DNA from: Halotia branconii CENA392
Lineage (GTDB): Bacteria > Cyanobacteriota > Cyanobacteriia > Cyanobacteriales > Nostocaceae
Direction: 5' to 3'
DNA length: 64,000 nucleotides
Assembly (NCBI RefSeq): GCF_029953635.1
Contig: NZ_CP124543.1
Location: 5,559,455-5,623,454 of the forward strand
This document shows, in pieces, positions 19,572 through 22,735 of the stretch (position 1 is its first letter; each line of letters starts with the position of its first letter). The position numbers and the translations under genes were made by a program. A model generated the notes under the pieces. That model saw nothing but the letters and a program-made list of their open reading frames with translations. It did no database searches and was not told where the DNA came from.

Positions 19572-20035
19572 GTGCTCAACGCCTTACGGCATCTAAGGTT
19601 TAAACAGTAATATTTACGCTAACTAATAAAGCTCCCCATTTTGTGCTCAACGCCTTACGGCATCTAAGGTTTAAACAGTTTTTAGGAGGAGGAAAATCTC
19701 CCAAAGGAACCTACGTGCTCAACGCCTTACGGCATCTAAGGTTTAAACAGGGTAATCTTATTGGTAATAAATTTTATATATGTCAAGTGCTCAACGCCTT
19801 ACGGCATCTAAGGTTTAAACAGATATTTTGATATGATCAATCATTTCAGATTCAATAAGTGCTCAACGCCTTACGGCATCTAAGGTTTAAACAGCCAATG
19901 CGATCGCCTGTCTTTTTCCATGCTTGATGTGCTCAACGCCTTACGGCATCTAAGGTTTAAACAGTGTTGTGTAGGAGGGAGTATGTCTGCTGGTGCTTTG
20001 TGCTCAACGCCTTACGGCATCTAAGGTTTAAACAG
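19572..20035 (-). CRISPR. CRISPR array, 7 repeats of 36 bp, 6 spacers
   Basis: There are seven identical 36-base repeats, at 19572, 19643, 19715, 19787, 19859, 19929 and 20000. Spacers are 35, 36, 36, 36, 34 and 35 bases. On the plus strand each repeat starts GTGCTCAACGCC and ends GGTTTAAACAG. Read on the minus strand, each repeat contains ATGCC-GTAA-GGCGT, a 5-bp stem with a GNRA-type tetraloop. Eight bases follow it to the repeat end (TTGAGCAC), the usual type I 5' handle. This and the minus-strand cas genes to the right suggest transcription right to left. No interference genes are in the window. All repeats are identical, so the array is not visibly degenerate. Confidence 0.97.
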
Positions 20036-20298
20036 GGCGAAGCTTGAAAGTCTTATCAAGCAAGCGCTCTAATCCAAGTTTACAAGCACCTCCCAAAAAA
20101 ACCAATAAGAAACTAAAATTTTGCAATTTTGACTCAATTACAATCTAGTTTGATTATTCAAAACCTTTGATATGAGAGGGTTTGCAAATTTTGCAAGCAC
20201 CTCCAACGCCTCAAAAAGTCCTGAAATATAGTATTGATCAGGATTTCAGCAATTGAATGTACCTTCATTGCCTGAACAAACAGAGATGCTTGCGTTTT
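20036..20298 (-). promoter_or_regulatory. candidate CRISPR leader
   Basis: This AT-rich, gene-free stretch lies between the last repeat and cas2, where a leader for a minus-strand array would lie. Features are two near-identical blocks, ACAAGCACCTCCC (20082-20094) and GCAAGCACCTCCA (20193-20205). There is also an inverted repeat around TTGCAAATTTTGCAA (about 20182-20196). These could be integration or promoter elements. Leader function is inferred from position and hairpin orientation only. Confidence 0.45.
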
Positions 20299-20592
20299 TC
20301 AGACAATCAAAAAAGGCTTGTCTGTATTTTCCCATGTACCTGGTCGGTTGTACTTGGGTATATCCTGCACACAGCGATCGCTCAAACGCACAAACAAAAT
20401 ACAATCCTCTTTTGCCAAAATCGTCTCCAACTCCCAACGTAGTTTTTCGCGATCGCGTTGATTCATGACGCAGCGAAAAATTGAATATTGTATCCGTTCT
20501 CCATATCCCTCCAACAACTTATAAGCTTTGCGCCAACGTTTAGGATCGCGAATGTCGTAACAAATGAGGTAACAATTTTTTTGTTCTGCCAT
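20299..20592 (-). CDS. cas2: CRISPR-associated endoribonuclease Cas2
   Basis: This 97-residue Cas2 is a ferredoxin-fold subunit that forms the spacer-integration complex with Cas1. The first strand and active-site region read CYLICYDIRDPKRWRKAYKL. The body has the family's SIFRCVMNQRDREKLRWEL and a C-terminal FLIV strand. Length and order look complete. It begins 9 bases after the cas4-cas1 relic stop, as in a single operon (cas4-cas1, cas2, leader, array). With its Cas1 partner largely deleted it probably has no adaptation partner here, unless another locus in the genome provides one. Confidence 0.93.
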   Translation of the reverse strand: MAEQKNCYLICYDIRDPKRWRKAYKLLEGYGERIQYSIFRCVMNQRDREKLRWELETILAKEDCILFVRLSDRCVQDIPKYNRPGTWENTDKPFLIV

Positions 20593-20601
20593 TTTGATAC
20601 C

Positions 20602-21290
20602 TCACCGCAGTATTAAATGACCAAACAAACCACCCTCACCAGACCATTCTTTTTCTAACAGTCGCACTTCTAGCTCAAACAAACGGCGATAGGTAAGAGA
20701 GTAACCCAGAACTGGATGTTTCCAAGTTTCTTGTTTGCGATTTTCATACAGTTCAACGAATTTACGCCGCCCAGCTTCGCTTAACCAAACTTGTTGTCCT
20801 CGAATTTCAAAATCTGCTTTAATATCCCATTGACCCCGATTAACTGAAGCCATTACAGTTATATCTACCAAAGGCACTCGAAATATTTCCAGCAAATCTA
20901 ATGCTAGGGGTGCAGCTTGCGATCGCGGCTGTAAGTAAGCATAAGCGAGAATTTGTAGGCGATCGCTTTCCCATGCTTGGGGTTGTTTATTCTCATCTCG
21001 ATGAGCGCGGCCGCGTTTGTGTTCGTAGGGAATTGTTTGCCCGTCACGAGTGCGGAGGGCATCAAGCCGACCTCTTAATCCTAATTCTTCACTTTCGAGA
21101 AATAATTCTTCCCAATCCTCGTCTTCTTGTTTTTCTAGTTCTGCATGAAGTCTGCGTCCGGCAAACACCGCAGCATCTTGGGTATAAAGTTCCTCAACTT
21201 CTTCGAGGTAGAACAGCCGAGGGCGTGAAGGGCAGAGACGCGAATAGTTTCGGGTTTGGCGGAGATTTCAAAATGTTCAAGAATTTGCAT
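20602..21290 (-). pseudogene. cas4-cas1 fusion gene, deleted and frameshifted
   Basis: The intact gene would encode a Cas4 nuclease fused to the Cas1 integrase. The visible 188-residue frame keeps Cas4 motifs (LRGRLDALR, PYEHKRG, DRLQILAYAY) up to about residue 78. It then jumps straight into the Cas1 C-terminus (PLALDLLEIFRVPLVD, SVNRGQWDIKADFE, WLSEAGRRKF). The C-terminal iron-sulfur cysteines of Cas4 and the catalytic Glu region of Cas1 are gone. Upstream, ATG at 21290 starts MQILEHFEISAKPETIRVSA, but the frame is shifted near 21217-21227. The usual YCPRLFYLE motif survives only as RPRLFYLE in the other frame. HIP1 octamers at 20921-20928 and 20959-20966 lie at and near the deletion junction. 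Confidence 0.85.
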
Positions 21291-21352: not shown

Positions 21353-21931
21353 TTAGGGATTTAACCCAGCTTGTTGAAAGATTGCGTTAGGGGTAATTTC
21401 CAATTCTGGTAGTAAATCATCAGTAATTACTTGATGAGATTGATAAGTAATCGGTAAAGAAGATGGCGCAAACACAGTTACAGTTCTAGCTTTCGTATCA
21501 ACCACCCAAACACGAGAAACACCAGCTTTGATATAATCAGTTGCTTTTTCGGCAATTTCGCCAAAAGTTTGACCGGGGGAGATGATTTCAATCACTAATT
21601 CCGGTGCAACAGGACAAGCTTCATCTAATAGCCAGTCAGCAGTCAGACGGTGATATGAAACATAAGTCAAATCTGGTACGGGCATCCAATCTTGATTTTG
21701 GAGTTTTAATTTAACAGCCCATTCAACTACTACACGGCCTTGATTGTGAAAGCATTGGTCTAGAAGAAGAAGTAAAGTTTTTTGAACAGTAGAATGAAAA
21801 AATTTTGGTGACATTTCATCGTTTTTATATTTGGGTACAGCTTCACCGTTCACAAACTCGTATGTAATATCACCTTCGGGAAGTGCGAGAAATTCTTCTA
21901 GGGTTAGGCGTTGATTAGAAGACTGAACCAT
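21353..21931 (-). CDS. Uma2 family endonuclease-like protein
   Basis: This 192-residue protein has the PD-(D/E)XK Uma2 fold, which is greatly expanded in cyanobacteria. It has the N-terminal LTLEEFLALPEGDITYEFVNGE. The catalytic pattern follows: Asp87 in PVPDLTYVSY, Glu115 in PELVIEIISP and Lys129 in AEKATDYIKAGV. The end is VWVVDTKARTVTVF. The role is unknown; the family is predicted to cut DNA and is often linked to mobile DNA. The next gene upstream is a close paralogue, so the pair looks like a tandem duplication. Confidence 0.88.
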   Translation of the reverse strand: MVQSSNQRLTLEEFLALPEGDITYEFVNGEAVPKYKNDEMSPKFFHSTVQKTLLLLLDQCFHNQGRVVVEWAVKLKLQNQDWMPVPDLTYVSYHRLTADWLLDEACPVAPELVIEIISPGQTFGEIAEKATDYIKAGVSRVWVVDTKARTVTVFAPSSLPITYQSHQVITDDLLPELEITPNAIFQQAGLNP

Positions 21932-21998: not shown

Positions 21999-22556
21999 TT
22001 AAACAATTCCAGCTTGTTGAAAAATATCTTGGGATGTAAATGTTATTTTTTCTAATAGTGAATCAGCTAAACTATCGTTACCCCTTTTTGTTTGTGGTGG
22101 TGTATTGGGATAAAAAATAGTGATGGCTTTAGCTTGTGCATCCACAACCCAAACTCGTAAAACTCCTGCTTTGAGGTAGTCGGTAGCTTTTTCAATCATT
22201 GCTGTAAAAGTCTGATCGGGTGAGATAATTTCTACAGCAAGTTCTGGGGGAACTGGACAAGCTTCATCAATTACAACATCTCGATTTAAACGAGTATAGG
22301 AAATGTAAAGCAAGTCAGGAATAGAAACCCAATCTCTACCATTACGCTTTAAAGTAACAGCCCATTCAATACCTACTTCTCCCAAATCTTGCGCCCATTG
22401 GTTGAGAAGTAAAGCCAAGACAAGGGTTAATTTGGAATGAAATCGTTTTGGTGACATCTTCGGTTTAGCTTCTCCATCAACCAACTCGTATGTAATATCT
22501 CCTTCAGGTAGTGCAAAAAATTCTTCAAGGGTAAGTTGGGTTTTGAGTTGAGTCAT
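21999..22556 (-). CDS. Uma2 family endonuclease-like protein
   Basis: This is a paralogue of the preceding Uma2 gene, with the same opening (LTLEEFFALPEGDITYELVDGE). The active-site pattern is intact: Asp81 in SIPDLLYISY, Glu109 in PELAVEIISP and Lys123 in IEKATDYLKAGV. I use the ATG at 22556 (MTQLKTQ); a TTG four codons upstream is less likely. The encoded protein is 185 residues. It is cytosolic, with no other domain. The function is unknown, and DNA cleavage is predicted from the fold. Confidence 0.87.
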   Translation of the reverse strand: MTQLKTQLTLEEFFALPEGDITYELVDGEAKPKMSPKRFHSKLTLVLALLLNQWAQDLGEVGIEWAVTLKRNGRDWVSIPDLLYISYTRLNRDVVIDEACPVPPELAVEIISPDQTFTAMIEKATDYLKAGVLRVWVVDAQAKAITIFYPNTPPQTKRGNDSLADSLLEKITFTSQDIFQQAGIV

Positions 22557-22735
22557 GGTTAATTTCAAGGTTGAGGGATGACTCTATTTTGATGGAATTT
22601 TGTCAGAATGAGGATCGATGATGGAGGTAAATCTTTCTGGCGGAGGTTGATGATTTATGATTGATGGGTTGACATCAAAACTATACCTTTGCCAGCGTGT
22701 ATCAAATGCCCAATGCCCCATGCCCAAAAACTAGA

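Follow-up and report, generated by a model that had tools for sequence, protein, structure and literature searches.

A remnant of a type I-MYXAN CRISPR locus in Halotia branconii CENA392, with two deletions in cas4-cas1 beside an intact-looking cas2 and array

The cas4-cas1 remnant and its two deletions

The window analysed here is a stretch of 64,000 nucleotides of contig NZ_CP124543.1 from Halotia branconii CENA392. On its minus strand a CRISPR array, a leader-like region, cas2, a broken cas4-cas1 fusion gene, a lone repeat-like element, two Uma2-family genes and the 3' end of a cas5 gene lie one after another (Table 1; L numbers denote loci, G numbers genomes). The array repeat is of the same family as that of intact type I-MYXAN relatives. 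Two hallmarks of this subtype are found at the locus, a repeat of the ...CCTTAGATGCCGTAAGGCGTTGAGCAC family near cas2 and a MYXAN-family Cas1 fused to Cas4, the latter recognised in the remnant by its matches to TIGR03983 and TIGR00372.

Table 1. Features of the locus, in window coordinates
Feature	Position	Strand	Basis or description
CRISPR array	19572..20035	-	7 identical 36-nt repeats, CTGTTTAAACCTTAGATGCCGTAAGGCGTTGAGCAC on the - strand; 6 spacers
Leader-like region, cas2 to array	20036..20298	-	74-76% identity with its counterparts in L140, L143 and L016
cas2, full length, 97 aa	20299..20592	-	PF09827, E 3e-21; TIGR01573; PADLOC Cas2b
cas4-cas1 fusion pseudogene	20602..21290	-	ATG at 21290, stop at 20602; family models and alignment
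Junction of 963-bp in-frame deletion	20931..20932	-	DNA alignment, L047 arithmetic
13-bp deletion site; frameshift, first Fe-S cysteine removed	21217..21227	-	DNA alignment
Solitary CRISPR-repeat-like element, CCTCTGATGTCGTAAGGCGTTTAA	21319..21342	-	24-mer, 28 nt upstream of the cas4-cas1 ATG
Uma2-family gene 1	21353..21931	-	PF05685, E 1e-28; protein 96% identical to that encoded upstream of the intact L041 cas4-cas1
Uma2-family gene 2	21999..22568	-	PF05685, E 1e-28
3' stub of cas5 (DevS)	22600..22705	-	92% over 106 nt to L047; tblastn 86%, cas5 residues 180-214

The open reading frame at 20602-21168(-), 188 aa long, covers part of a Cas4-Cas1 fusion gene that originally began at the ATG given in Table 1. 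Family models assign its residues 1-80 to Cas4 (TIGR00372) and residues 78-188 to positions 237-347 of Cas1_MYXAN (TIGR03983, 347 positions), the last third of that model. Both scores are below the curated thresholds (206 of 358 bits for TIGR03983 and 36 of 65 for TIGR00372), since the greater part of the gene has been lost. The window gene was aligned at the DNA level with nine intact relatives (L041-L047, L049 and L112), and deletion sizes and residue numbers refer to the intact 554-aa relative L047. Two gaps are observed, one of 13 bp and a long one of 963 bp, or 321 codons, which is in frame.

The 963-bp deletion takes L047 residues 125-445 and with them Cys185, Cys188, Cys194, Glu376 and His445, while Cys27 is lost with the 13-bp deletion. 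The four cysteines are presumably the Fe-S ligands of Cas4, and Glu376, His445 and Asp457 the metal ligands of Cas1. Their positions were computed via an alignment to a Cas4/Cas1 fusion of solved structure (PDB entry 7mi4), which is homologous to L047 residues 16-548 (E 1e-71); compared with 7mi4, the window copy lacks the long deleted segment and the first cysteine. A functional CRISPR adaptation module has the Cas1 metal ligands Glu, His and Asp and the four Cas4 Fe-S cysteines. Neither set is complete in the window copy: none of the four cysteines is left, and two of the three metal ligands are gone. Asp457 and the Cas4 motifs RLDALR and YEHKRG are kept. The earlier note, which was made from the letters of this DNA, had described a Cas4 frame running straight into the Cas1 C-terminus, a second lesion near the N-terminus, the loss of the Fe-S cysteines and the catalytic Glu of Cas1, and an array left intact. 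All of this holds; the first point is borne out by the model matches and the in-frame gap, the second lesion proves to be the frameshifting 13-bp deletion, His445 is gone as well, and the seven repeats are indeed identical. Counted against a dead gene is that the 188-aa frame remains open; if expressed, it would yield a Cas4/Cas1 chimaera.

The two deletions appear to differ in origin. At the site of the 13-bp gap L049 carries the 9-mer GCCCTCGCC twice, 13 nt apart, and L041 carries an 8-mer twice with the same spacing. The short deletion fits slippage between direct repeats of 8-9 bp such as those seen in L041 and L049. At the junction of the long deletion no microhomology was seen by eye in the nine-relative alignment. 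Two HIP1 octamers (20919-20926 and 20959-20966) lie 5 and 27 nt from this junction, and recombination from HIP1 to HIP1 had been proposed at first as the source of the deletion. Such closeness is unusual, with HIP1 within 30 nt on both sides at 0.08% of window positions (a post hoc computation). The available part of PMC4390886 mentions some indication of HIP1 site-specific recombination in Synechococcus PCC 7002, and elsewhere states that nothing ties HIP1 to homologous recombination. A crossover between the octamers predicts that one copy is left and that 1003 bp are lost, the spacing in L047 (HIP1 starts at gene positions 337 and 1340, 0-based), but the gene misses 963 bp and retains both copies. 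Both sites are found at matching places in seven of the nine aligned relatives and therefore look ancestral (L044 lacks both and L043 the second). Because both survive, a simple crossover is contradicted, and HIP1-to-HIP1 recombination is very unlikely to have produced the deletion. A variant with a break at HIP1 and subsequent trimming is compatible with the data.

Interference genes and other CRISPR loci of the genome

Annotated intact loci have the order cas6-cas3-cas8-cas7-cas5-cas4/cas1-cas2, followed by the array; one plasmid instead carries the interference genes downstream. At the window locus the type I-MYXAN interference genes cas8/cmx8, cas7 (DevR), cas5 (DevS), cas3 and cas6 (Cmx6) are missing, and the cas5 stub is the sole trace of this module found in the window. 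The locus is a remnant and not a complete I-MYXAN system.

The host genome comprises 7.12 Mb in two contigs. Two queries found no cas8 in it, and the only own-genome match of the second query has an E value of 0.25 and contains stops. As a control, this second query found cas8 in six of ten other genomes, including the one from which the query came, and missed G192, G197, G029 and G199, although the G192 operon has cas6, cas3, cas7 and cas5; divergent cas8 genes can therefore escape the search. For I-MYXAN cas7, a single query (cas7_L119), run without a positive control in the same tool, gave no credible match in the genome (best E 0.35, with stops). Since the queries were single sequences and the families evolve fast, these searches may have overlooked a very divergent cas8 or cas7. 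The cas3 match of the genome belongs to a type I-D locus. A MYXAN-type cas6-like scrap of 67 codons with stop codons lies far from the window (G000:C1:6796535-6796735, L180). We also considered a trans-acting MYXAN module elsewhere in the genome; the cas8, cas7 and cas6 searches found none.

All of this rests on one assembly, and the gene could be intact in the organism if the assembly or the sequencing were at fault. Two separate lesions and the adjoining loss from cas6 to cas5 in one locus argue against such an artefact, as does an assembly that is 99.97% complete in two contigs. We regard it as extremely improbable.

The array seems to be left without an effector as well as without an integrase. 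The earlier note had asked for a genome search for interference genes without mentioning their loss, and had allowed the array to grow if another Cas1 acts in trans. The genome does hold two other cas1 genes, each encoding a full-length Cas1d with Cas4 in a type I-D locus with cas2 adjoining. The locus at 3.342-3.355 Mb has cas10d, csc2, csc1, cas6, cas4, cas1, an adjoining cas2-like match and a 767-aa frame with cas3', and the one at 467-473 kb has cas3', csc1, cas6, cas4, cas1 and cas2. The Cas1-Cas2 of these loci might insert spacers into the window array, or a I-D effector might use its crRNAs, one I-D locus having cas3', cas10d, csc2, csc1 and cas6. The identity of all seven window repeats would also agree with continued use. 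However, the I-D arrays carry 37-nt repeats of the GTTTCAATCCC type, which are unrelated to the 36-nt repeat of the window, and Cas6 and Cas1 are as a rule repeat-specific. Use or extension of the array in trans is quite unlikely; of the suggestion in the earlier note, the existence of another Cas1 stands, while a repeat match to the window array does not.

Two observations concern the I-D loci themselves. In the fuller one (L194 15365-17291), genes for a HepT toxin, a nucleotidyltransferase and a YhcG-type nuclease lie between cas3' and cas10d. In the second (L193 10869-12948, G000:C1 about 470.9-472.9 kb), only the C-terminal part of csc2 is left and there is no cas10d between cas3' and csc2; this locus seems to be internally deleted too, while its cas4, cas1 and cas2 look full length.

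A self-targeting spacer was considered as a cause of the loss, and the spacer search found no match in the own genome that covers a whole spacer. Within-array spacer matches are 16-29 nt long with E >= 0.03, the best being 20 nt across a repeat end and a HIP1 site. The search of phages gave no match, and the 22-25-nt cores of the six spacers have no exact match in viral_contigs. Eight plasmid records match. Six of them come from cyanobacteria and seem to be further arrays of the same repeat family; the other two are a Leptospira record, with 43% covered at 73% identity, and a Chryseobacterium record, matched over 29 nt at E 0.1.

The region upstream of cas4-cas1

A genome-wide pattern search recovers the seven array repeats and the lone element upstream of cas4-cas1, and nothing else. 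Counting elements at most 100 nt from the projected start with at most 8 mismatches of 24, we find such an element in 42 of 84 distinct upstream regions, the window and 41 of 83 relatives, as against 4 of 4200 shuffled controls; the 84 regions are not independent, because they come from related species and include a few partial genes. In L100, L145 and L146 elements stand in a row about 70 nt apart that reaches the gene, and L094 has three elements about 140 nt apart. These rows suggest that the lone element represents the final repeat of an array lying upstream. In its stem the three inner pairs are standard in all 36 distinct 24-mers, and independence of the columns predicts 36 too. The next pairs are standard in 35, 21 and 29 of 36, again matching the independence expectation, and no compensatory change is seen among the 36. 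There is therefore no covariation support for a selected hairpin.

The lone repeat might be functional, that is, a fossil last repeat of an upstream array which persists in many cyanobacterial I-MYXAN loci as a hairpin for Cas6 to bind, placed in the 5' leader of the adaptation genes. We consider this possible but rather doubtful. If it were true, Cas6 could cleave or cap the cas4-cas1-cas2 transcript and so couple adaptation to crRNA processing; alternatively, the repeat could serve as a joint for swapping adaptation and interference modules. The lone repeat of the window would then have outlived the gene under its control. A recurring lone repeat at the boundary of interference and adaptation genes would be weightier if it were proven to be a control element read by Cas6. 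Stand-alone repeats in cas loci were reportedly noticed in a 2023 survey. CreR/CreA-like regulators consist of two repeats around a short guide that is partly complementary to a promoter. Ectopic degenerate CRISPR repeats are already known, as described in the available parts of PMC8501985 and PMC9458426, the former giving the CreA-type regulator with two repeats. The lone element is likewise a degenerate repeat outside an array, and it differs from the CreA type in being a single repeat upstream of cas4-cas1.

The two Uma2-family genes could be taken for intruders that disrupted the operon. This is not supported: of the 66 loci that combine a full-length cas4-cas1 with 2 kb or more of upstream sequence, 15 have a Uma2 match in the 2 kb before the gene (over most of the Uma2 gene in 13, fragmentary in L063 and only 26% identical in L093). 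Uma2 is found upstream of intact cas4-cas1 in L041, L042, L044, L050 and others. In G060 (L196) a Uma2 gene sits between cas5 and cas4-cas1. Both window copies match the PADLOC candidate PDC-S03.

Decay of the locus and comparison with known systems

Among the matches listed (to E about 1e-42) in 217 genomes of the family, at least 28 genes of the L047 subfamily are full-length cas4-cas1, with 78-100% identity to L047, in 26 genomes. No copy among these matches has the window junction, which speaks for decay of the locus. Further partial copies among the matches listed are in G199, G142, G029, G060 and G012. Those of G199 and G142 are close to the end of a contig and could owe their shortness to the assembly. 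At least four others (G029, G060, G012:C45 and G001:C33, the last from a separate search) are remnants, because they are not near contig ends.

Compared with six intact relatives, from which it is separated by dS of 0.56-1.08, the remnant has a dN/dS of 0.08-0.11 in the C-terminal part and 0.02-0.04 in the N-terminal part. Comparisons of the six intact genes with one another give 0.02-0.08 and 0.02-0.07, respectively. Only in the C-terminal part is the value a little higher than between intact genes. This indicates that the gene was constrained over most of the branch and that the lesions are recent relative to its divergence from these relatives. The loss is probably recent, as had been argued at the outset from the identical repeats; repeat identity alone is insufficient for this, and the dN/dS values now support it.

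The nearest relatives of the cas4-cas1 remnant are L041, L042 and L203-type genes (86-89%), and those of cas2 are L143 and L016 (91%); the leader is most similar to L140 and L143 (74-76%). The locus may have been stitched together from two lineages near the cas1/cas2 boundary. The switch of relatives falls at window 20592-20606 and suggests a recombination joint there. Elsewhere in the family, Cas4-Cas1 of L202 (G192) and L203 (G188) is 97-98% identical to that of L201 (G195), the L047 locus, and the interference proteins of L202 and L203 are only 22-49% identical to the L047 and L119 references. This pattern points to an exchange of interference modules at the boundary of cas5 and cas4-cas1.

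We very probably see a decayed type I-MYXAN (I-B family) operon, its interference genes deleted, cas4-cas1 hit twice and the array inert. What we infer is the sequence in which the events took place, how each deletion arose and that the array is inert. The ancestral order would have been cas6-cas3-cas8-cas7-cas5-(Uma2)-cas4/cas1-cas2-leader-array. The interference genes would have been deleted except for the final ~110 nt of cas5, and a slippage-type deletion of 13 bp would have shifted the frame of cas4-cas1 near the N-terminus. The 963-bp deletion would have arisen through illegitimate joining. The array would now have neither a cognate integrase nor a cognate effector. The decay looks recent and ordinary. 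It illustrates clearly how a CRISPR locus can decay step by step, since interference has gone and adaptation has been damaged twice while array and cas2 are still intact, and it cautions that an intact array adjoining cas2 need not mean a working system.

Such losses have counterparts. The available part of PMC11237760 describes stochastic loss of CRISPR-Cas among strains of myxobacteria. The other decayed I-MYXAN loci of our comparison (G029:C1:921019, G060:C25, G012:C45 and G001:C33) also hold a partial cas4-cas1. They differ from the window in the parts left, G060 keeping cas8, cas7, cas5 and part of cas3, and the stretches examined next to these four yielded no array. The I-MYXAN subtype is known from cyanobacteria, as given in the available part of PMC5177637. 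With systems of this type, for example that of plasmid pNSMS101 of Nostoc sp. MS1, the window locus shares the Cas4-Cas1 fusion, cas2, the repeat family and the common order cas5 - cas4/cas1 - cas2 - array. In contrast to them, it lacks cas6, cas3, cas8, cas7 and nearly all of cas5, and its cas4-cas1 is broken.
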